From contig JAVSMP010000001.1 of NCBI GenBank assembly GCA_032027145.1, forward strand, positions 2,299,116 through 2,363,115: 64,000 nucleotides of DNA, read 5' to 3'. The notes below the pieces were generated by a model. That model ran no database searches. It was given only the letters and a program-made list of their open reading frames with translations, and was not told the DNA's origin. Within the stretch, counting starts at the first letter, position 1. Every line of letters starts with the position of its first letter. Shown here one piece after another: positions 32,980 through 58,765 of this stretch. Source of the stretch: Ignavibacterium sp. (lineage in GTDB: Bacteria; Bacteroidota; Ignavibacteria; Ignavibacteriales; Ignavibacteriaceae). Position numbers and translations under genes: made by a program.

Positions 32980-33095
32980 GATGCTGTCTCAAAGCCACAA
33001 TTTGTCAGTCTGAGTTTGGCAAGACTAATATTTGTGCAATAATCACACTTCAACAAGTTCGGAGTGATCCTAAACTTTATTAATGAGACAGCATC
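32980..33095. repeat. Composite inverted-repeat element with 12-bp arms
   Basis: Perfect 12-bp inverted arms GATGCTGTCTCA (32980-32991) and TGAGACAGCATC (33084-33095) enclose 92 bp. Read on the minus strand the distal arm is followed by a T-run, so it could terminate the PorV-like gene whose stop is 9 bp away. The interior holds two degenerate copies (about 33004-33029 and 33042-33072) of the constant-loop hairpin family that is abundant at 42871-43622. This may be a terminator invaded by the repeats or a small non-autonomous element. Confidence 0.6.
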
Positions 33096-40798: not shown

Positions 40799-42718
40799 CT
40801 ACTTCAATAATGTCATTTTAATTGATTTGCTGAAATTACCATAAGTTAATGTAGCAATGTAATTACCGCTTGCTACTTTAACACCACTATTGTTCGTAGC
40901 ATCCCAAACCGTTTCGTAGCTTCCTTTTTCAAAAACTTCATTGTTGATCAGAGTAGCTACCTCCTTCCCAAGCATATCATATATCTTCAAAGATATTTTT
41001 TTCTGTAACGGGAGGATAAATTTAATGGTTGTTGAAGGGTTGAAAGGATTCGGAAAATTATTTTCTAATACATAATCTTCAGGCATAACAATATTATATC
41101 CCTGATCAACTAATCCTGTTGGACCAGTGAATTCCAAAACGCGGATTGTTTTTCTGTATTCATTGATGAACTTATGAGTCAAGTTAGGATCCAATTCCCA
41201 TGAATGAGTAGAATCTACCCAGAAATATTCATATACAGTTGTTGAATCGTAAACACTTTGTTCGGATATAACCATTTCCATTTTTCCGTCCTGGTCTATA
41301 TCAACGCCATCTGCAAAAATATAAGCTGTAAATGGGGTCTCTTGTCGCAGGGTATCAATAATTGAAGGATTTAATACATAAGTAGTATCTGTACCATTTA
41401 TTACTGTATCAATTCTTCCATGATAAATTCTGAAAGTTGCAAATACGTCTCCGCCTTCACCTGTATAAACAAGATTAGCAGTATAATTATCTTTATCTAA
41501 TAAACTGCCGGAACCATTGTACTGAACAGCTATTATGTTAATACCTCTGCCGCCTCCTGTATAAATTTCATCTTTTCCATCTTTGTTCAAATCTCCTTTA
41601 ACGCAGGGCCAAAGTTCAACTTGACCTGTTTTTCCACCTAAAGCACCCAGATCAGAATTCAAAGCAATTCTTCCAAATCTTTTTGCAACAGAATCAGGAT
41701 CACTGTGAAACAGATTTGCACTTACATCACTTGGTGAAAACTGAAACAGAACCATATCAAAGTTATCCTGATATAATGTACCAACAACTTCATCTATTCC
41801 ATCACCGTTAACATCAGCAGCAGTTATACCAAAATAACTAACACCGTCTTTACCGACAGGTGAATATCTGTTATAAACACCTGGCAAACTTGTATCTGGA
41901 TAAGCGTATGTATCATTTCCATTAACCTGAATTGCCCACATACCGCATCGATCCCAGTGGTTATTAATTATGGTAAGATTACCATCACCTTTTATATTAG
42001 CAGCGGCTGAACTGAAGTATGAACCAGTAATTCCATAATTACTTCCATTTTGAGTTTCATCGAGCCTGCCGCCCTCGCATACTAAGCTGGCGAAACCAGG
42101 GAAACTGCCGTCAATTGATAATACAAAAACATTTCTCTGTGCAGAAGTATGACAAATAATCTCTGTTTTGCCATCACCATCTAAATCTTTAACCAGTAAA
42201 GTTTCGCGGTTTAATCTTAATGTTTCACTCGTACCGGTTGCTGATGAGAACATAGCATCTGTAATTTCATATGCTGGTTCTGTTCCCCAGGAAGAACCAT
42301 CCCATTCATAAAACGCAATTCTTCTTTCACCATTTTGTTCAAAAATTATTTCAGGCATTCCATCACCGTCGCAATCACCAACTTGCGGGAATCTTGGTGT
42401 TGATCCACTTGAAGTTGTGGAAACAGGAGATGACCAGATAATTTCAAGATTTCCAGCGCCATCATGTTTTAGAACGTGGACTCTTCCTCCGTTTGTATAA
42501 TCAGTAGAAATAATTTCTTGTTCCCCGTCATTATCTACATCTGCTACAATAACTCTTCTAACACCTAAATCACCAAAATATGGTGTAGAAGAATCCGGAG
42601 CAGTGCCTGCATAAGCATTAAAAGTTGCATAACTTTGCACCTCAATAGGGGTAGTTTGAGCTTGCAATGCGGAAGTAATCAAAAGTACCGCAGATAAAAG
42701 TACAACAATTTTTTTCAT
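40799..42718 (-). CDS. Secreted FG-GAP/VCBS-repeat protein with type A T9SS sorting domain
   Basis: About 639 residues. I start at ATG 42718 (MKKIVVLLS), which has an AAAGGAAAAG ribosome-binding site; an in-frame ATG at 42751 would add 11 residues before the signal peptide. Repeated calcium-binding FG-GAP/VCBS motifs are seen: DVDNDGEQEI, GDCDGDGMPEI, DLDGDGKTEI, DVNGDGIDEV, DLNKDGKDEI and DIDQDGKMEM, suggesting a beta-propeller. The last ~85 residues (NNFPNPFNPSTTIKF ... SGNYIATLTYG ... MTLLK) are a canonical type IX sorting domain. Likely cell-surface; ligand unknown. Confidence 0.88.
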   Translation of the reverse strand: MKKIVVLLSAVLLITSALQAQTTPIEVQSYATFNAYAGTAPDSSTPYFGDLGVRRVIVADVDNDGEQEIISTDYTNGGRVHVLKHDGAGNLEIIWSSPVSTTSSGSTPRFPQVGDCDGDGMPEIIFEQNGERRIAFYEWDGSSWGTEPAYEITDAMFSSATGTSETLRLNRETLLVKDLDGDGKTEIICHTSAQRNVFVLSIDGSFPGFASLVCEGGRLDETQNGSNYGITGSYFSSAAANIKGDGNLTIINNHWDRCGMWAIQVNGNDTYAYPDTSLPGVYNRYSPVGKDGVSYFGITAADVNGDGIDEVVGTLYQDNFDMVLFQFSPSDVSANLFHSDPDSVAKRFGRIALNSDLGALGGKTGQVELWPCVKGDLNKDGKDEIYTGGGRGINIIAVQYNGSGSLLDKDNYTANLVYTGEGGDVFATFRIYHGRIDTVINGTDTTYVLNPSIIDTLRQETPFTAYIFADGVDIDQDGKMEMVISEQSVYDSTTVYEYFWVDSTHSWELDPNLTHKFINEYRKTIRVLEFTGPTGLVDQGYNIVMPEDYVLENNFPNPFNPSTTIKFILPLQKKISLKIYDMLGKEVATLINNEVFEKGSYETVWDATNNSGVKVASGNYIATLTYGNFSKSIKMTLLK

Positions 42719-42870
42719 TACTTTTCCTTTCATATTTGTTGGTTGAAACAATACATTTTCTGAAATACAATATAAACAACTTTTTTTAAAAAATAATATA
42801 TTTTTTAAAAAATCAGATTTTGAGTTTTAATAATAACCTTCTGGAAAATTATTGTATAACAAGAGCTGCA

Positions 42871-42899
42871 TGTCATCCTTCGACAAGCTCTGGATGACA
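42871..42899. repeat. Single constant-loop hairpin (variant stem)
   Basis: GTCATCC (42872-42878) and GGATGAC (42892-42898) form a stem; on the minus strand the loop reads AGAGCTTGTCGAA. It is a stem/loop variant of the family making up the array that starts 60 bp further on. Confidence 0.75.
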
Positions 42900-42959
42900 A
42901 ACAAGTGTTACAATGAGTTCATCTAAGTGTGAACGTTAAAGAAAAAATAAAACTCAGAT

Positions 42960-43622
42960 GTCACGTAGAGCGAAGTCGAAACGTGACAGAAACAAAAGTC
43001 AGTCTTCGACTCCGCTCAGACTGACAAATGGGTGTCACGTTGAGCGAAGTCGAAACGTGACAGAAATAAAACTCAGTCTTCGACTCCGCTCAGACTGACA
43101 GATGGTTGTCGCATTGAGCGAAGTCGAAATGTGACAGAAACAAAGGTTCAGTCTTCGACTCCGCTCAGACTGACAGGAACAAAATTAAGTCTTCGACTCC
43201 GCTCAGACTGACAGGTGATAGTCACGTTGAGCGAAGTCGAAACGTGACAGGAACAAAGGTTCAGTCTTCGTCTCCGCTCAGACTGACAGATGGTTGTCGC
43301 ATTGAGCGAAGTCGAAATGTGACAGAAACAAAACTCAGTCTTCGACTCCGCTCAGATTGACAAATGGGTGTCACGTTGAGCGAAGTCGAAATGTGACAGA
43401 AACAAAATTCAGTCTTCAACTCTGCTCAGACTGACAGGTGATAGTCACGTTGAGCGAAGTCGAAATGTGACAGAAACAAAGATTCAGTCTTCGACTCCGC
43501 TCAGACTGACAGGAACAAAGGTCAGTCTTCGACTCCGCTCAGACTGACAGGAACAAAGGTCAGTCTTCGTCTCCGCTCAGACTGACAGGAATAAAATTCA
43601 GTCTTCGTCTCCGCTCAGACTG
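42960..43622. repeat. Array of about 18 alternating hairpin units with a constant loop
   Basis: Two unit types alternate irregularly. Type A (about 7 copies, e.g. 43034-43061) has arms GTCACGTT/AACGTGAC around GAGCGAAGTCGA. Type B (about 11 copies, e.g. 43074-43097) on the minus strand has arms TCAGTCT/AGACTGA around GAGCGGAGTCGA. Types A and B are thus the same element in opposite orientation with different stems. Some stems carry wobble variants (GTCGCATT/AATGTGAC). Linkers are short and similar (ACAGAAACAAA). No ORF, no CRISPR-like unique spacers. The array ends 80 bp before hsdR. Confidence 0.9.
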
Positions 43623-43701
43623 AATTGCAGTCTTTATTCTTACCAATATCAATCAGATTTTTCTTATTTTTGACTTAATCATACAGAATATTACAAGTGT
43701 T

Positions 43702-46236
43702 ATGGCTGCTAAAGAAGCTAAAGCCCGAATCAAAATAAATAAGCTGTTGGAAGAAGCCGGTTGGCGGTTTTTCGATAGTGAATTTGGTCCCGCCAATGTT
43801 ATACTTGAAAACAATATTAAGCTGACTCAGAAATTACTTGATGAGTATGGTGAAGACTTTGAGAAATCGAAGAATGGCTACATTGATTTTTTATTACTCG
43901 ATGATCGTGGCTACCCTTTAATTGTTCTTGAAGCTAAGTCAGAGGATAAAAACCCTCTTGTAGGAAAAGAGCAGGCACGGAAATATGCAAAGGCACAGAA
44001 TTGCAGATTTGTAATCCTATCTAACGGTAATCTTCATTACTTATGGGATCTCAACCACGGCAATCCTTATGTAATTACTAAATTCCCTGAACCTTCTTCT
44101 ATTAAAATCTATAAAGATCATCAGCCTAATCCGCAGAAACTTGTGGATGAACGTTTGCTCGATGATTACATAGCACTTACTCAGCTTCCAAACTATTTTG
44201 ATAATCCTGCTTTCAAGGATGAATCGCTCAGAAAAGATTTCATCGAGAAGAATAAACTAAAATTTCTTCGCTCTTATCAGTTAAGAGCAGTTGATAAACT
44301 TCAAAAAGCAGTGCAGGCAGGAAGCAACCGTTTTTTATTTGAGATGGCAACGGGAACCGGTAAGACACTTATCGCTGCTGCAATTATAAAATTGTTCCTG
44401 AGAACCGGTAATGCAAAACGAGTTTTATTTTTAGTTGATAGGTTAGAGCTTGAAGATCAGGCAAATAAGGCATTTGTAAACTTGCTGAAGAATGATTACA
44501 AATCTGTAATCTATAAAGAGAACCGGCAGGATTGGCGTAAATCTGAAATTGTAGTGACAACAATTCAGTCACTTCTTTTCAATAACAAATATCAGAAATT
44601 CTTTTCTCCTACGGATTTCGATCTGGTAATATCAGATGAAGCTCACCGTTCAATCGGAGGAAACTCAAGAGCAGTGTTTGAATATTTCATCGGATACAAA
44701 CTCGGTTTAACAGCAACACCAAAAGACTATCTTAAGAAAATTGACAAAGCTGGACAGCAAGTCAGAGATCCACGTGAAGTAGAAAGGAGAATATTACTTG
44801 ATACTTACAGGACCTTTGGCTGTGAATCAGGTCAACCAACTTTTCGGTATTCGCTGATAGATGGCGTTCGTGACGGATATCTGATAAACCCTGTTGTTGT
44901 AGATGCCCGAACTGATGTAACCACACAGCTATTATCGGATGAAGGTTACTCGGTGATTACTTTTAGAGAAGATGGTGAAAAGGAAGAAGAAGAGTATTAT
45001 CAGCGTGACTTTGAAAAAAAGTTTTTTTCTGAAGATACAAACAAACTGTTCTGCAAAACATTTCTTGATAATGCTTTGCTCGATCCGGTAACAAAGGAAA
45101 TCGGCAAATCAATCATATTCAGTGTTAGTCAGAACCACGCTGCTAAACTAACGCAGATATTAAACGAGTTTGCAGATCAAATGTATCCGGGAAAATACAA
45201 TTCAGATTTTGCAATTCAGGTTACTTCTCAGATTCCCGATGCTCAGCAATTCACAATAAACTTTGCCAATAATAATCTTAGCGGTTCTGGTAACTTCCTT
45301 CCCACTTACAAAACAAGCAAAACGAGAGTGTGCGTTACTGTTGGAATGATGACGACCGGATATGATTGCACAGATATTCTCAACCTATGCTTAATGCGTC
45401 CAATATTCTCACCTACAGACTTCATCCAGATTAAGGGCAGAGGCACACGTAAGCATAATTTCCTTGAACAATTATTTGATAACGATCTGAAGGAACAGAT
45501 TGCTGAGCTTGATAAAACGAAGTATAAACTCTTTGACTTTTTTGCAAACTGCGAATACTTTGAAGAGAAATATAATTATGATGAGGTATTAAAGCTTCCG
45601 AGATACCCAAGAAGAACACAACCAACGGGTAATGAAGGACCTGTTGTAATTGAAAGGTTTGAAAATTTCGATCCTGATAAGCTTATTGCGATGGAAGTAA
45701 AAGAAGTTGGTTTATCAGGAATGAAGATAGACCGGATGTTCTTTGAGCAATTTGAGGACAGGATTCGTTCGGACAAATTCATTCAAGAGTATGTTGAAAA
45801 AAGAAGCTGGGACTCTTTAATAGAGTATTTGAATCAAAACATTATGAACAAACCTGAATATTTCTATACGATTGAAAAACTTAGAAAAGCTGCCGGAGTT
45901 GACAGAAGAATATCCCTGCGTGAAGTTGTAGAAAAAGCTCTCGGTTTAATTCCCGGATTCAAATCAAAAGATCAACTGCTTGAAGAAGAATTTGAAAAAT
46001 TTATACTTGATAGAAAACCAGATAAACCAAAAGATATTCAGGCAATGAAATATTTCTTCAAGGCTTATATAACAAGCAGTCAGGTTAGAGATATTATTGA
46101 GAGCAGGGATTTAACTCAGCTAAATGTAAATGCGATCTTTACAATTAAAGATTATAAAGCTGTTCCGAAGGAATGGCGTGAAATAATTCCTGAATATATA
46201 AAAGACTATGTTCCATTAAATCAATTTATGATGTAA
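43702..46236 (+). CDS. hsdR: Type I restriction enzyme R subunit (EcoEI-like HsdR)
   Basis: Restriction and DNA-translocating subunit, 844 residues. It has an N-terminal PD-(D/E)xK nuclease (D62, E77-A-K79), Walker A MATGTGKT at about 215-222, DEAH box 312-315, GLTATP a little after, helicase motif VI QIKGRGTR, and an EcoEI R C-terminal domain (about 700-840). All catalytic residues are intact. It works with the fused HsdM-HsdS at 47365. The stop TAA is directly followed by the ATG of a Y1 transposase, which separates it from its partner gene. Confidence 0.93.
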   Translation: MAAKEAKARIKINKLLEEAGWRFFDSEFGPANVILENNIKLTQKLLDEYGEDFEKSKNGYIDFLLLDDRGYPLIVLEAKSEDKNPLVGKEQARKYAKAQNCRFVILSNGNLHYLWDLNHGNPYVITKFPEPSSIKIYKDHQPNPQKLVDERLLDDYIALTQLPNYFDNPAFKDESLRKDFIEKNKLKFLRSYQLRAVDKLQKAVQAGSNRFLFEMATGTGKTLIAAAIIKLFLRTGNAKRVLFLVDRLELEDQANKAFVNLLKNDYKSVIYKENRQDWRKSEIVVTTIQSLLFNNKYQKFFSPTDFDLVISDEAHRSIGGNSRAVFEYFIGYKLGLTATPKDYLKKIDKAGQQVRDPREVERRILLDTYRTFGCESGQPTFRYSLIDGVRDGYLINPVVVDARTDVTTQLLSDEGYSVITFREDGEKEEEEYYQRDFEKKFFSEDTNKLFCKTFLDNALLDPVTKEIGKSIIFSVSQNHAAKLTQILNEFADQMYPGKYNSDFAIQVTSQIPDAQQFTINFANNNLSGSGNFLPTYKTSKTRVCVTVGMMTTGYDCTDILNLCLMRPIFSPTDFIQIKGRGTRKHNFLEQLFDNDLKEQIAELDKTKYKLFDFFANCEYFEEKYNYDEVLKLPRYPRRTQPTGNEGPVVIERFENFDPDKLIAMEVKEVGLSGMKIDRMFFEQFEDRIRSDKFIQEYVEKRSWDSLIEYLNQNIMNKPEYFYTIEKLRKAAGVDRRISLREVVEKALGLIPGFKSKDQLLEEEFEKFILDRKPDKPKDIQAMKYFFKAYITSSQVRDIIESRDLTQLNVNAIFTIKDYKAVPKEWREIIPEYIKDYVPLNQFMM

Positions 46237-46668
46237 ATGCCGTTCGTAAAAATCTGGATACATATAGTATTTGGGACAAAGAATAGAGAGCCTTTTCTTG
46301 TTAAAGATGTGCGTGAAAAAGTTATTTCACACATTATTGAAAATGCTAAAACCAAAGGCATTTTTATTGATTGTATTAATGGGTTTAATGATCATCTGCA
46401 TGTTCTTATTTCATTAGGTAAAGAAGAGAACATCGCCAAGGTAGTTAATCTGATAAAGGGCGAAGTGTCTCATTGGATAAATAAAAATAAAATAACCAGA
46501 ACAAAGTTTGAATGGGCAGATGAGTATTTTGCTGTTTCTGTTAGTGAATCTCAGGTAAATGTGGTAAGAAATTATATCGCGAATCAGGAAAGGCATCATA
46601 GTAAGAGGAGTTATTCTGAGGAGTATGAGGAGTTTGTAAGGAGATATGGTTTTAAGTATTTGGGCTAA
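46237..46668 (+). CDS. REP-associated (RAYT-like) Y1 transposase
   Basis: 143-residue single-strand DNA transposase of the IS200/IS605 Y1 (HUH) superfamily. HLH at 53-55 gives the two metal-binding histidines and Y113 in VRNYIANQERHH is the probable nucleophile. Helix features after Y113 (FVRRYGFKYLG) resemble bacterial REP-associated tyrosine transposases. ATG follows the hsdR stop with zero gap. Its own stop TAA is embedded in the first downstream palindrome (GGGCTAAAGCCC). No accessory TnpB is present. It appears intact. Confidence 0.9.
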   Translation: MPFVKIWIHIVFGTKNREPFLVKDVREKVISHIIENAKTKGIFIDCINGFNDHLHVLISLGKEENIAKVVNLIKGEVSHWINKNKITRTKFEWADEYFAVSVSESQVNVVRNYIANQERHHSKRSYSEEYEEFVRRYGFKYLG

Positions 46669-47349
46669 AGCCCGATTCTCTTCATAGTTCGGTATGTCTC
46701 CGTCCTAAAGGACGGAGTTATTGTTGGTTGGATTGTCTTCTTCCTAATGATAGAGTTGTTGGGCTAAAGCCCGATTCTCTTCATAGTTCGGTATGTCTCC
46801 GTCCTAAAGGACGGAGTTATTGTTGGTTGGATTGTCTTCTTCCTAATGATAGAGTTGTTGGGCTAAAGCCCGATTCTCTTCATAGTTCGGTATGTCTCCG
46901 TCCTAAAGGACGGAGTTATGAATTGTTGGTTGATATGTCTCTGTCTCTCGGATGGAGTTGTTTGTCTCCGTCCTAAAGGACGGAGTTATGAATTGTTGGT
47001 TTGTATGTCTCTGTCTTAAGGATGGAGTTGTTTGTCTCCGTCCTGAAGGACGGAGTTATGAATTGTTGGTTGATATGTCTCTGTCTTAAGGATGGAGTTG
47101 TATGTCTCCGTCCTAAAGGACGGAGTTATGAATTGTTGGTTGATATGTCTCTGTCTCTAGGATGGAGTTGTTGGGCTAAAGCCCGATTATATCTTAGTTC
47201 TTAATTCCTCTGGCATAAATGCTGGAGTATAAATAACAAGTTGATACCTTCATCCTTTAGGATTCAGAAAGAGATGAATCGAGGATATAACCAACTCCGT
47301 CCTTCAGGACGGAGAAGTCCGAGACAGAAATAATTAAGGGCTTTAGCCC
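46662..47349. repeat. REP-type palindrome array next to the Y1 transposase
   Basis: Two palindromes recur: GGGCTAAAGCCC (46662-46673, 46761-46772, 46860-46871, 47173-47184 and inverted at 47338-47349) and CTCCGTCCTAAAGGACGGAG (near 46698, 46797, 46896, 46965, 47035 as a variant, 47105 and, as CTCCGTCCTTCAGGACGGAG, near 47295). The first three units have an exact 99-bp period; later ones alternate with a degenerate CTCTGTCTTAAGGATGGAG unit at about 70 bp. The array is bounded by the same palindrome in direct and inverted form, and ends 15 bp before the hsdMS start. Confidence 0.92.
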
Positions 47350-47364
47350 AAACAAAAGGATATT

Positions 47365-49902
47365 ATGCTTGATAACGAAACAAAACGACGAATAGATACT
47401 GCAAGAGATATCTTAGTAGGTAAAGTTCCTGATCCAAAGTCGCAGGTTGAACAAATTACCATCTCACTCATCTATAAGTTTATGGATGATATGGATGCAG
47501 AAGCAGAAGAGCTCGGTGGTAAAAGAAAATTCTTCTCAGGTGAGTTTGAACGCTACAGCTGGAAGAAGTTGATGGCTCCTGATCTTGGCGGGTTTGATGT
47601 TCTTACTCTTTACGGTGAAGCAATCCAGAAGATGAATATCAACCCAAACATCCCTCAACTGTTCAGAGATATTTTTAAGAATGCATTCTTGCCATACCGT
47701 GATCCTGAAACATTAAAAAGTTTCTTAAAAGTAATTGATGATTTTGAGTATGATCATTCTGAACGGCTCGGTGACGCATTTGAATATCTGCTCTCTGTTC
47801 TCGGCAGTCAGGGAGAAGCTGGACAATTCAGAACTCCAAGGCACATAATTGATTTTATGGTTGATGTTATTTCACCTAAAAAAGATAATACAATTCTTGA
47901 CCCGGCTTGCGGAACAGCAGGATTTCTTATTTCATCTTATAAGCATATACTCAAACACAACTCAAGTAATTTTATTCCCGAAAAAGATAAAGAAGCTTAT
48001 CAGCAGACTGATGTAAGCATCGCTGAACTTACTACTGGTGGAACACAAAAGTATAAAGGCGATAAGCTGACTCCCGATGAAAGAGCAATGCTATCCAGGA
48101 ATATAAAAGGGTATGATATTTCTCCCGATATGGTTCGGCTATCGCTTGTTAATCTTTATCTGCACGGATTTACAGATCCAAAAATTTCTGAGTATGATAC
48201 ACTTACAAATGAAGATAACTGGAACGAATACGCTGATGTAATTATGGCTAATCCTCCGTTTATGTCACCAAAGGGTGGAATAAAACCGCATAAAAGATTT
48301 TCAATCCAGTCTAACAGAAGCGAAGTTTTGTTTGTTGATTATATTGTAGAGCACTTAACACCAAACGGCAAAGCTGCAATAATTGTTCCCGAAGGAATTA
48401 TCTTTCAATCCGGAAAAGCATACAAGCAGTTGCGTAAAATGCTTGTTGAAAATTATCTCTTTGCAGTTGTGTCATTACCGGCAGGTGTGTTTCAGCCATA
48501 CTCAGGTGTTAAGACATCTATTCTGCTGATTGATAAAACACTGAACAAGAAAACAGATAAAATACTTTTTGTAAAAATTGAAAATGACGGATTTGATCTT
48601 GGCGCACAACGCAGACCAAAAGCCGGAAGCCAGTTACCAATCTCTGCATCTTTAGTTAAAGAATATATCACCACTTGTCATTCCGGACTCGACACGGAAT
48701 CCACTCTCATTGAAAAGTTCGGTCCAAACAATCTTTGGAATATTGCAACCAAAGAAAAAATTGGTGAGAATGAAGACTGGAATTTGAGTGGAGAGAGATA
48801 CCAACATAAAGTTCTTCATAAAGCATCGAATTATACTCTTATTTTGATACGTGATTTAACTGAAATTGTAACGAAAGGAACTACACCAACCACTGCTGGA
48901 TATAACTTTGTTGAAGAAGGGATTAATTTCATCAAAATTGAATCTATCACAGATGAGGGAAAATTTATACCCAGTAAGTTTGCCTTTATTACTGAAGAAT
49001 GTCATCAAGCGTTAAAGCGATCCCAGTTGAAACAAGGTGATGTCCTATTCTCAATTGCTGGTGCATTTGGAAGAACTGCCGTAGTAATCAAAGATATTCT
49101 GCCCGCAAATACTAACCAAGCTCTTTCAATTATTAGATTAAAACGTAATCTTATCATTCCTGAATACCTTTTTTGGATATTAAAATCAGAAAAGATATTA
49201 GAAGAAGTTCAAAGTCTTAAGGTGGGTGTTGCTCAATACAATTTATCCCTAAAACAGATTAACGAAATAAAAATCCCACTCCCACCACTTGAAATACAAA
49301 AAGAAATAGTTGCAGAGATAGAAGGCTGGCAAAAAATAATAGACGGTGCAAGACAGGTTGTAGAAAACTACAAACCACAAATTGATATTGATCCGGAATG
49401 GGAGATGGTATCACTTGCAGAAATTATAAAATTATCAAGTGGTAAAGGATTGGCAGTTAGCCAGCTTGGTGAAGGAAAACATCCTGTTTATGGTGGTAAT
49501 GGGATCAATGGTTATCATACAGAATATTTCTTAGACAATTCAACTATTGTCATCGGAAGAGTTGGTGCTTATTGTGGTGCTGTTCATATAACTCAACCTA
49601 AATCGTGGGTGACTGATAATGGTTTATATGTTACAGATTTTTTACGGGAAATAAATATTAAATATTTAGCTCAATCACTTACACAACTGAATTTGAATAA
49701 GTATGCTAAAGTTGGTGGTCAACCATCTATCTCTCAAAAAACGGTAACGGAATTACAAATAGCTGTTCCTAAAATTAAAATTCAAGAGGAGATCGTATCA
49801 AGACTTGAGACTGAAGAAAAAATAGTTGAACAGAACAAAAAACTCATTTCCATCTTCGAGCAAAAGATAAAATATAAAATAGCAAAGGTATGGGGGGAGT
49901 GA
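47365..49902 (+). CDS. Fused type I modification methyltransferase-specificity protein (HsdM-HsdS)
   Basis: 845 residues. The N-terminal half is an N6-adenine methyltransferase: helical HsdM domain (about 1-150), AdoMet motif DPACGTAGF from D179, and catalytic NPPF at 296-299. From about residue 485 the protein becomes an HsdS specificity subunit with two target-recognition domains (about 490-650, with TEIVTKGTTPTT, and about 685-840, with LSSGKGLAVSQLGEG) each followed by a coiled-coil helix (LPPLEIQKEIVAEIE; IQEEIVSRLETEEKI). Normally these are separate genes. The reading frame is continuous. The AAAGGA ribosome-binding site sits just after the REP array. Confidence 0.93.
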   Translation: MLDNETKRRIDTARDILVGKVPDPKSQVEQITISLIYKFMDDMDAEAEELGGKRKFFSGEFERYSWKKLMAPDLGGFDVLTLYGEAIQKMNINPNIPQLFRDIFKNAFLPYRDPETLKSFLKVIDDFEYDHSERLGDAFEYLLSVLGSQGEAGQFRTPRHIIDFMVDVISPKKDNTILDPACGTAGFLISSYKHILKHNSSNFIPEKDKEAYQQTDVSIAELTTGGTQKYKGDKLTPDERAMLSRNIKGYDISPDMVRLSLVNLYLHGFTDPKISEYDTLTNEDNWNEYADVIMANPPFMSPKGGIKPHKRFSIQSNRSEVLFVDYIVEHLTPNGKAAIIVPEGIIFQSGKAYKQLRKMLVENYLFAVVSLPAGVFQPYSGVKTSILLIDKTLNKKTDKILFVKIENDGFDLGAQRRPKAGSQLPISASLVKEYITTCHSGLDTESTLIEKFGPNNLWNIATKEKIGENEDWNLSGERYQHKVLHKASNYTLILIRDLTEIVTKGTTPTTAGYNFVEEGINFIKIESITDEGKFIPSKFAFITEECHQALKRSQLKQGDVLFSIAGAFGRTAVVIKDILPANTNQALSIIRLKRNLIIPEYLFWILKSEKILEEVQSLKVGVAQYNLSLKQINEIKIPLPPLEIQKEIVAEIEGWQKIIDGARQVVENYKPQIDIDPEWEMVSLAEIIKLSSGKGLAVSQLGEGKHPVYGGNGINGYHTEYFLDNSTIVIGRVGAYCGAVHITQPKSWVTDNGLYVTDFLREINIKYLAQSLTQLNLNKYAKVGGQPSISQKTVTELQIAVPKIKIQEEIVSRLETEEKIVEQNKKLISIFEQKIKYKIAKVWGE

Positions 49903-57043: not shown

Positions 57044-58765
57044 TTAAAAATCGTAATCGTATGTTGGGTCTTTTTTTATCTGGATTGACTTCTCATTATC
57101 AGAAGAAAAATTTTCAGAAACCTGACTTATGTTTCTAAACAAATCTTCTTTTGATTTATAATCCTTGAGATAATAGATCCTGACCTGATTACGGTTTTTT
57201 ATCAGCCAGTTAAGGGTTATTTTCATTTTCTCAAAGTCTTCATCGGTTGGGTTTGATTTTGAGTTTATTGTATTATTGTAAAAATCATCCAATGCCGGAT
57301 CGAATTTATTTTTTTTATCGTGCAGATAATTTCTTATATAAATTTTACCCTCAATCATTAACACAAAATCATTTTCAAATCTTGAAATTACTTCGAATAG
57401 TACTTTTGCTTTATTAACCGGTTCAGCAAGTATAGATGATTTATGAGTTTGATTAAGGATGAAATCCACTAATTCTTTAATCTCCGCTGCCTGTTCATAT
57501 TTTTGCCTGGCGGAGTATTCTTTCATTTTGTTTAATAGTCTATCCAGTACAAATTGATTTTTCCCATAAAGAAAATCATAAACTTTCTCCAGTTCATTTT
57601 TATAATCAGCTTCATCATTATTTTCGCATGGAGCAGTGCATCTGCGGATATCATAAAGGAAGCAGGCTCTGTTTTTCTTAAAATCCTTATCTGAACATTC
57701 TCGAATTGCAAAAGACTTGTTTATGAACTCAAGTGTTTCTGCTGCTTTTTTACGTGATATAAATAAACCAAAATAATCATTGCCATCAAAATCAAAATGA
57801 TTTGTTAACTCCAGATTTGGATATTTATGAGTTTTATTTATTCTTAAAAAATATTTATTACCAAATAACTTTAACTGTGCATTATGTTTTGGTTCAAGGA
57901 TTTTTATTGTTTCAGCTTCGGTTAATAATGCTGTTAATTCAGTGTTGGTTATTATATGTTTTAATCTGACAGCTTGTTTAACAATTTTCTGAGCTTTTCG
58001 TAACGCAGAAGGCGAGAAATAACTTTTAACACGATCTCTGATTGACTTAGCTTTACCTACATAAATTATCTCATCTTTTTTATTTGTGAAATAATAAATT
58101 CCCGGTGCATTCGGCAGTGCAAGGTAATCTTCCTGCAATTCCTTTTTCACATTTGTTAAATAATTATGCTGATAACCTTTTTGATAGCTTAATAATTCGC
58201 CGACAGTTTTAATTTTATCTTTATCCTGAAGTTCTCTTATCATTTTTATAAGCACTTTTGCAGTTATTTCAGCATCACCAAGCGCTCTATGAGAATTTTT
58301 ATTTTTAAGATTCAGGAAATCAGCTACTGATGAGAGAGATTTACTTTTTAAATCAGGATAAATGTTTCTTGCAAGTTTTAATGTGCAGCAGGATTCATCA
58401 CTGATAAATTCTCTTCCGCTCAGCATAAACTCAGTATTAAGAAACGAAGAATCGAATGGGAAATTATGAGCAGTTAAAACAGTATTGTCAATAAAATTTA
58501 TAACTTCATCAACAACTTCAGAAAATACCGGTGCACCAATTACATCATAATTATCAATTCCTGTAAGAGATGTAATAAACGCAGGTATGTAGGTTTGCGG
58601 ATTGATTAGATAATGCAGTCTATCAGTAATCTTCAGCCCTTCAATTTTTACGATAGCTATTTCAATAACCCGGTTTTTATTTGCTGATAAACCAGTGGTT
58701 TCAACATCCACAACACTGAATGAAGCTTTTTCTAATGGTGTTAGTAAAATATTATCGTATTGCAT
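57044..58765 (-). CDS. DnaQ-like 3'-5' exonuclease fused to a GIY-YIG nuclease domain
   Basis: 573 residues. N-terminal DEDDh exonuclease (ExoI D20-E22 in DVETTG, ExoII HNFPFD at 100-105, ExoIII HRALGD at 159-164). Central GIY-YIG domain (GIY at 222-224, YVG at 235-237). Then the cysteine cluster CFLYDIRRCTAPC and a UVR-like helix, all as in the N-terminal half of UvrC. The same architecture occurs in other bacteria (DnaQ-Cho-like) and probably acts in DNA repair. No helix-hairpin-helix or RNase H domain follows. Intact. Confidence 0.88.
   Translation of the reverse strand: MQYDNILLTPLEKASFSVVDVETTGLSANKNRVIEIAIVKIEGLKITDRLHYLINPQTYIPAFITSLTGIDNYDVIGAPVFSEVVDEVINFIDNTVLTAHNFPFDSSFLNTEFMLSGREFISDESCCTLKLARNIYPDLKSKSLSSVADFLNLKNKNSHRALGDAEITAKVLIKMIRELQDKDKIKTVGELLSYQKGYQHNYLTNVKKELQEDYLALPNAPGIYYFTNKKDEIIYVGKAKSIRDRVKSYFSPSALRKAQKIVKQAVRLKHIITNTELTALLTEAETIKILEPKHNAQLKLFGNKYFLRINKTHKYPNLELTNHFDFDGNDYFGLFISRKKAAETLEFINKSFAIRECSDKDFKKNRACFLYDIRRCTAPCENNDEADYKNELEKVYDFLYGKNQFVLDRLLNKMKEYSARQKYEQAAEIKELVDFILNQTHKSSILAEPVNKAKVLFEVISRFENDFVLMIEGKIYIRNYLHDKKNKFDPALDDFYNNTINSKSNPTDEDFEKMKITLNWLIKNRNQVRIYYLKDYKSKEDLFRNISQVSENFSSDNEKSIQIKKDPTYDYDF

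Follow-up and report, generated by a model that had tools for sequence, protein, structure and literature searches.

GTC-footed, REP-like hairpins clustered in an Ignavibacterium genome enclose small GIY-YIG nuclease genes in some related genomes

Introduction

The hairpins described here, 19 of which are clustered in a 64-kb stretch of Ignavibacterium DNA (the window, by which the whole analysed stretch is meant), flank a small GIY-YIG nuclease gene as mirror-image pairs in several relatives, and repeats without a known moving enzyme may therefore have one. In each hairpin a (T)GTC foot at the 5′ end is followed by a short stem, free in its sequence, whose asymmetric loop is fixed (GAGC-N2/3-GTCGA); the units lie largely in inverted pairs with their tags on the outside (tag-out). 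The array in the window is probably a cluster of non-autonomous REP/REPIN-like elements that was amplified by a GIY-YIG nuclease enclosed by such hairpins elsewhere. An earlier note on this DNA had proposed ‘a REP-like element or a site for an unknown protein’, and the covarying stems, the conserved asymmetric loop and an accompanying protein family support that proposal; the 5′ foot, the wide distribution across phyla and the accompanying enzyme go beyond it.

Structure of the hairpins

An inventory of the 64-kb window, made with slightly relaxed loops, bears out both the constant loop that had been noted before (19 units at 42872-43624, loop GAGCNN(N)GTCGA) and the alternation of orientation within the array. 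Read in the direction of the unit, and small variations aside, the consensus is GTC-A-NNNN-GAGC-NN(N)-GTCGA-N'N'N'N'-T-GAC. When the window was scanned without regard to the loop sequence (GTCA start, 8-bp stem with at most one mismatch, loop 9-14), the GTCA-started hairpins found were units of the family only, all of them within 42872-43586. The loops of the array are GAGCGAAGTCGA, GAGCGGAGTCGA or variants that differ by one or two bases, whilst a solitary unit has the loop GAGCTTGTCGA; the inner stems of the window are chiefly CGTT/AACG, GTCT/AGAC and CATT/AATG, the solitary unit having TCCA/AGGA, and a G-T pair is the sole difference between some of them (CGTT/AATG). For three units treated as single-stranded DNA, the predicted fold matches the drawn hairpin, with z values of -2.6 to -3.1. 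Membership of a known RNA family was rejected for the hairpins, there being no Rfam match in window positions 42000-47500. A degenerate, weak and single hairpin match with the loop GAACTTGTTGA is found at 33042-33068, distant from the array.

The solitary hairpin, GTCATCCA-GAGCTTGTCGA-AGGATGAC, lies on the minus strand at 42872-42898, and the array proper (42960-43624) consists of 18 hairpins that make up seven tag-out inverted pairs and four extra minus-strand units, with a repeated dimer period of mostly 74-75 bp. The first pair (42960-43025) combines a plus-strand unit at 42960-42987 (CGTA/AACG) with a minus-strand unit at 42998-43025 (GTCT/AGAC), and the second (43034-43099) has its plus unit at 43034-43061 and its minus unit at 43072-43099. 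In the third pair (43108-43174), a plus unit at 43108-43135 (CATT/AATG) faces a minus unit at 43147-43174; next to it stands an extra minus-strand unit with the stem GTCT/AGAC (43185-43212). The fourth pair (43221-43287) is formed by units at 43221-43248 (plus) and 43260-43287 (minus, loop GAGCGGAGACGA), the fifth (43296-43361) by units at 43296-43323 (plus) and 43334-43361 (minus), the sixth (43370-43435) by units at 43370-43397 (plus, CGTT/AATG) and 43408-43435 (minus), and the seventh (43444-43510) by units at 43444-43471 (plus) and 43483-43510 (minus). The array closes with three further minus-strand units: one at 43521-43548 (GTCT/AGAC), one at 43559-43586 (GTCT/AGAC, loop GAGCGGAGACGA), and a last one at 43597-43624, which has an altered foot (TTCAGTCT) and again the loop GAGCGGAGACGA.

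The inner stem had been said to change with compensation, and this holds both genome-wide and across genomes. In shuffles of the inner stems that disregard relatedness among units, none of 5000 reached the observed Watson-Crick fraction either in the window's own genome (0.784 for 73 units with 22 distinct inner stems, unfiltered, against a shuffled mean of 0.460 and a maximum of 0.670) or in other genomes (0.733 against 0.438 for 40 units with 29 stems, from 30 loci). The window alone (15 units, seven stems, fraction 0.857) is moderate evidence of compensation, because 25 of 5000 shuffles reach its value. Stems besides the types of the window exist genome-wide (with TCCT, CTTT, TACC and others). 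Compensatory changes are thus not confined to the array, and no known transposon end was found that explains the units.

The foot is conserved in another manner. In the subfamily-A GIY-YIG loci described below, the 5′ G, T and C are present in 89, 90 and 88 of 92 units (all units within the fetched loci, several per genome, and so including more than the gene-adjacent ones), though symmetric pairing at these positions is just 0.18, 0.36 and 0.28, figures that are themselves inflated because the foot analysis kept only units with at least three of four inner pairs (59 of 62 in the window's genome, 30 of 40 in others and 92 of 99 in subfamily-A loci). Kept in 88-90 of 92 units though mostly unpaired, the foot is therefore conserved as sequence and not as stem. 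Among 30 units from loci chosen without regard to the foot, G is found in 21, T in 24, C in 21 and the following A in 23. The units of the window's genome are a double-foot version in which the foot is paired on both sides: of 59 units, 56 have the 3′ T, 55 the G, 56 the A and 38 the final C. The stem of the array appears 8 bp long because the GTC foot is largely matched by a 3′ GAC; the core stem is 4-5 bp, A predominates directly after the foot and the next position is free, the loop measures 11-12 nt and there is no fixed 3′ tail. The outer arms TGTCA/TGACA of the earlier note are thus paired in this genome, but TGTCA is a conserved 5′ foot that is unpaired in most units of other genomes. 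A fixed loop and foot, combined with freedom in the stem, suggest recognition of a folded strand or cruciform, and the hairpin may be recognised or spread as a unit.

Occurrence of the hairpins

The family consists of widespread small dispersed repeats and is found in several phyla. Exact copies of the loop GAGCGRAGTCGA number 68 in the 3.67-Mb genome from which the window comes, against none in reversed controls, and matches to GAGCNNNGTCGA number 73 against one. Across 148 genomes of the window's phylum, taken to be Bacteroidota, the pattern TGAGC-N2/3-GTCGAA gave 2186 matches versus 414 for the reversed control, and 21 of these genomes exceed their reversed control by at least 20 matches (termed element-rich below). 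A scan of named genomes for the tagged pattern returned at least 118 stretches; among the matches listed, stem-forming copies are seen in Ignavibacteria, Verrucomicrobia, Planctomycetes (Scalindua, Phycisphaerae) and Chloroflexi, and further ones in Clostridia, Eremiobacterota, Alphaproteobacteria and Peribacteraceae, whilst some matches (L142 and L143, for example) are stemless and look like chance. The richest genome (G002) holds 244 element copies. A strand bias of these copies was considered and dropped, the totals being equal at 122 per strand and the list that had suggested it lacking the minus-strand partners of some pairs (in L116, for example).

Tag-out inverted pairs are a basic arrangement of the element. 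In the window's genome, where clustering is marked, neighbours at a core distance of about 35-50 bp are tag-out in 15 cases and tag-in in 12, a near balance that arises because arrays alternate. Tandem arrays recur, both of hairpin pairs and of GIY-YIG units.

Association with nuclease genes

A gene at 46237-46665 of the window, 2.6 kb from the array, encodes a Y1 transposase (PF01797), and this family was rejected as the partner of the element. Y1_Tnp is present in 106 of 148 genomes, but the element encloses none of 60 Y1_Tnp places (four in this genome and 56 in 18 element-rich genomes), two of which have a single element on one side, at 301 and 405 bp; in the same survey, L092, L099, L100 and L101 showed the loop alone, with no stem. 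Two element-rich genomes, G002 with its 244 copies and G001, gave no Y1_Tnp match, and element copy number does not differ by Y1 presence (p = 0.19, 148 genomes). The Y motif of the window's gene, YIANQERHH, resembles that of subclass 1.2, which the passages cited give as lacking REPs (PMC6006769). The gene has a type I restriction HsdR-like gene on one side and an N6-methylase/specificity gene on the other (window 46237-47360), and a different repeat family, with GGGCTAAAGCCC and CCGTCCTAAAGGACGG units, comes after it. As Y1 genes were not enclosed and were lacking in two element-rich genomes, the ORFs neighbouring the element were clustered.

All-against-all comparison of 563 ORFs lying within 2 kb of tagged elements at 129 loci yielded five families present in at least three loci. 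The sole small one is a GIY-YIG protein of about 105 aa, found at five loci at distances of 36, 37, 44, 46 and 226 bp from the element; the other four are families of larger proteins, one of which looks ABC-transporter-like by eye (five loci, 0-760 bp). In a survey of 19 genomes, a stem-forming element was present on both sides within 600 bp at eight of 96 small GIY-YIG places (open frame of at most 170 aa) and on one side only at none, so that 88 of the 96 are not enclosed by it. Large GIY-YIG places (UvrC-sized and similar) had no element in any of 39 cases, and one of four places of intermediate size had an element on one side. The earlier note had asked whether one protein family co-occurs with the element: small GIY-YIG nucleases accompany it in a number of genomes, and the Y1 kind next to the array does not.

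Enclosure proved to be specific to a subfamily. Two GIY-YIG proteins of the first set were used as queries against 296 genomes, matching in 127 (subfamily A) and 139 (subfamily B), and 30 loci of each were examined, on the assumption that the gene lies 1.5 kb from the locus ends; this fails at contig-end loci such as L369, L371, L394, L398, L412 and L421. The strict element was found tag-out on both sides within 350 bp at 15 of 30 subfamily-A loci, the other 15 failing this test; either finder (the strict one or the generic one described below) gave 19 of 30, and 12 of 26 were enclosed by the strict element when four loci from first-set genomes were left out. Subfamily-B loci had no strict element in 30 cases and another tagged pair, in some cases of the GTCATTGCGAG kind, in nine. 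The difference in enclosure between A and B has Fisher probabilities of 5.8e-6 and 1.7e-5, and tag-in pairs were seen by either finder at six of 30 subfamily-A and three of 30 subfamily-B loci.

The enclosed unit is compact: foot and hairpin, some 30-130 bp, the nuclease gene, again some 30-130 bp, and the inverted hairpin and foot. At three loci read base by base (L257, L255 and L262) its foot-to-foot length is 365, 384 and 471 bp, and one array (L483) has units with the gene alongside units without it. The nuclease, of about 95-105 aa, is of the UPF0213/SLX1-like kind. The enclosed proteins match PF01541, and the consensus of 31 element-flanked proteins retains YI, Y.G, R, H and E, whose roles we take to be those of the conserved residues of GIY-YIG proteins. 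Relatives of solved structure are UPF0213 proteins (8.8e-16 and 6e-11) and an SLX1 homologue (3e-4), the similarity to UPF0213/COG2827 (PDB 1zg2, 1ywl) and SLX1 spanning residues 2-81 of 97.

The window's own genome gave no subfamily-A match at 1e-10. It does retain part of a GIY-YIG gene of subfamily-B-like type, flanked by inverted GTCATTGCGA-type hairpins (L290, G000:C1:2112248). A GIY-YIG domain also lies within a 579-aa open frame on the minus strand of the window at about 57890-58105 (G000:C1:2357005-2357220), which served among the large GIY-YIG controls. At least three genomes of the same family (G144, G136 and G290) carry subfamily-A genes, and alongside these stand double-foot hairpins like those of the window, some with altered loops (L373, L385, L393); by the strict definition the element is on one side in G144 and G136 and on both sides in G290. 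No small GIY-YIG gene was found in G002 (244 copies) or in its two searched genus-mates. Presence of a subfamily-A gene (E ≤ 1e-19) and element copy number are only loosely linked: nine of 21 element-rich genomes have the gene versus 20 of 127 others, and a Mann-Whitney comparison of copy number over the 148 genomes, uncorrected for kinship, gives p = 0.0015. Three orthologous locus pairs were compared and no clean empty site was seen in them. The window array would consist of gene-less derivatives, the enzyme having been lost or acting from elsewhere.

Other tagged hairpins and the wider nuclease family

GIY-YIG genes are also flanked by hairpins of other sequence. Pairs of TGTCATTCC..GGAATCC-type hairpins surround three tandem GIY-YIG units in L297, (C/T)GTCATTGCGAGG-type hairpins stand around L343, and same-strand copies of these lie beside L279. 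A generic finder of [CT]GTCA-tagged hairpins, which is loose in that it also returned tag-in pairs at six of 96 small GIY-YIG places and tag-out pairs at two of 60 Y1 places, found tag-out enclosure at 16 of 96 small and none of 39 large GIY-YIG places; at 1677 random places, which include coding DNA, it gave 14 tag-out and seven tag-in pairs. Outside the phylum, 30 loci of 85 matches were sampled from 24 genomes that had been reached via element-bearing loci titled outside Bacteroidota (small being at most 200 aa here, the gene again taken to lie 1.5 kb from the locus ends, and five loci being cut by contig ends), and 11 of 23 small GIY-YIG loci lay in some tagged tag-out pair versus none of seven large ones. 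Those 11 belong to Scalindua, Saccharibacteria, Berkelbacteria, Alphaproteobacteria, Verrucomicrobia, Clostridia and Chloroflexi; the alphaproteobacterial loci have CGTCATCCCGGCG..GGGATCCA-type hairpins.

Flanking type shifts much more rarely along the nuclease tree than under label shuffling. Labels were given to 177 genes, reduced to 159 by removal of duplicates, with ORFs of more than 170 aa excluded: the element on both sides in 17 and on one side in 14, other hairpins in 31 and 20, tRNA in 28 (a label reserved for genes that lacked a tagged hairpin) and none in 49. On one quick tree of 145 small GIY-YIG proteins, built without a mixture model, element-flanked and other-hairpin-flanked genes are separated by seven changes (79 rows; at least 17 in 300 shuffles), or three when only both-sided rows are used (48 rows; shuffles at least 10), and tRNA-adjacent and hairpin-flanked genes by one change (102 rows; shuffles at least 17), low counts that can partly reflect related copies.

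A tRNA lies within 400 bp of 28 of 96 small GIY-YIG places, none of 39 large ones, one of 60 Y1 places and none of 30 element loci, and a clade of short GIY-YIG genes (loci in L255-L454) adjoins tRNA genes of many kinds. In the window's genome, L285 and L286 (G000:C1 at about 1733881-1734727 and 1384667-1385513) each contain three tandem, identical or nearly identical GIY-YIG ORFs. Ahead of every ORF stands a copy of a tRNA's 5′ portion in which hairpin sequence takes the place of one arm, and the two arrays end at a complete tRNA (Pro, cgg; Ser, tga). At L287 (G000:C1 at about 2977300-2977640) three repeats of a tRNA-like 3′ half, with a period of about 124 bp, lie beside a truncated GIY-YIG ORF.

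Discussion

The observed element, with its covarying stem, conserved foot, paired arrangement and subfamily-specific enclosure of a nuclease gene, can be placed in a mechanism in which the GIY-YIG nuclease would recognise the hairpin or cruciform through its foot and loop and would cut or nick at it; repair against an intact copy could then spread or tandemly amplify the unit together with its gene-less derivatives. Recognition, cutting and mobilisation in trans, as well as a past loss of the enzyme from the window's genome, are what we infer from arrangement and distribution. SLX1, which the enclosed proteins resemble, is a structure-selective nuclease (PMC7017083). A precedent is the free-standing GIY-YIG nuclease SegB, which is described, in the passages cited, as amplifying segments in tandem through recombination, both in cis and in trans (PMC13096335).

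Other explanations have been weighed. The GIY-YIG gene might be a passenger, a free-standing homing nuclease that lands or cuts at existing REP pairs whilst the REPs spread otherwise; many copies are indeed possible without a subfamily-A gene, as in G002 and in the window's genome, and a related GIY-YIG clade adjoins tRNA genes that are surely not of its making. The pairing is, however, subfamily-specific, tag-out on both sides and at short distances, and no other small enclosed family emerged from the clustering of the 563 ORFs at 129 loci, so this reading is thought unlikely, though it deserves to be taken seriously. A role of the hairpins as ordinary terminators of transcription or as RNA-stability elements, with local multiplication by slippage or unequal crossing-over, would suit short stem-loops and an array that is largely a dimer of about 74 bp in tandem; conservation of loop and 5′ foot across genomes around a free stem, copies at many separate genomic sites and the lack of an Rfam match in 42000-47500 all speak against it and make it very improbable. 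Least probable of all, and scarcely credible, is that a classical RAYT/Y1 (HuH) transposase moves the hairpins as it does GTAG REPs, with the gene at 46237-46665 as the partner: the frequency of Y1_Tnp, the copy 2.6 kb from the array and the two places with a single one-sided element favour it, but it has to face the absence of any enclosed Y1 place, the two element-rich genomes without a match, a copy number that is indifferent to Y1 presence and the different repeat family that follows the window's own Y1 gene. Amplification by a GIY-YIG nuclease enclosed elsewhere remains our preferred reading of the array. With a little less assurance, we lean towards a broader view in which (C/T)GTC-tagged REPs overall are the ends or remnants of minimal mobile elements with a GIY-YIG nuclease as sole gene, whose subfamilies differ, across phyla, in the hairpin family with which they pair, and whose sister clade has specialised on tRNA genes.

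Among known repeats, the family comes closest in its tag to the CGTC-tagged REP superfamily (Di Nocera et al. 2013, PMC3733652), for which the passages cited describe no association with transposase genes and report no dedicated enzyme. The two share the 5′ tag (CGTC there, often TGTC), inverted tag-outside (HH) dimers and the lack of a flanked Y1 gene. CGTC-tagged REPs are described there as having an 8-9 bp stem with A-T and T-A as its first two pairs, a 4-5 nt loop and a CCA-like 3′ tail (PMC3733652), whereas the present family has a core stem of 4-5 bp, a fixed loop of 11-12 nt and no fixed tail, pairs its foot on both sides in this genome and encloses a GIY-YIG gene in a number of genomes. 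Tag-outside dimers are also said there to predominate and clusters to be rare (PMC3733652); in the window's genome close neighbours are tag-out in 15 cases and tag-in in 12, and clustering is marked. As the tag is shared but stem, loop and tail differ, the family is not filed among the published CGTC families. With GTAG REPs, REPINs and RAYT REPtrons, as the cited passages portray them, it shares a short hairpin that has a tetranucleotide foot on its 5′ side, an arrangement in inverted pairs, a high copy number and, at times, a flanked small gene (PMC6006769), and the seven tag-out pairs of the window are REPIN-like in that two inverted REPs with a short spacer form the repeated unit. The foot is nonetheless GTC(A) instead of GT[AG]G, no Y1 gene is enclosed at the 60 places, and the enzyme is a GIY-YIG protein unrelated to HuH/Y1. 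Phage SegB offers a further likeness, a GIY-YIG enzyme that is likewise small and free-standing and lies beside its proposed target in a tandemly amplified locus; it acts, according to the same passages, on tRNA-containing phage sequence (PMC13096335), whereas the present genes lie between dispersed hairpins of the chromosome in several phyla. The enclosed nucleases, with their GIY-YIG domain (PF01541), are similar in sequence to UPF0213/COG2827 and SLX1; three Caulobacter copies of UPF0213/COG2827 have been discussed as possible repair enzymes, with no link to repeats made in the passages cited (PMC1839093). In the openly licensed PMC literature, none of the papers among the matches listed joins GIY-YIG genes and REPs, which is weak evidence of absence.

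The 2013 survey left the mobility of CGTC-tagged REPs open, reporting no flanked transposase gene in the passages cited (PMC3733652). Subfamily-specific enclosure of a GIY-YIG gene by hairpins with such a foot names an enzyme that can be tested, and could account for the multicopy and patchy occurrence of tiny GIY-YIG nucleases. It also points to GIY-YIG nucleases as potential drivers of selfish repeats in bacteria; if this is true, CGTC REPs would gain their missing enzyme, and GIY-YIG would be a second enzyme class behind bacterial REPs besides HuH/Y1.
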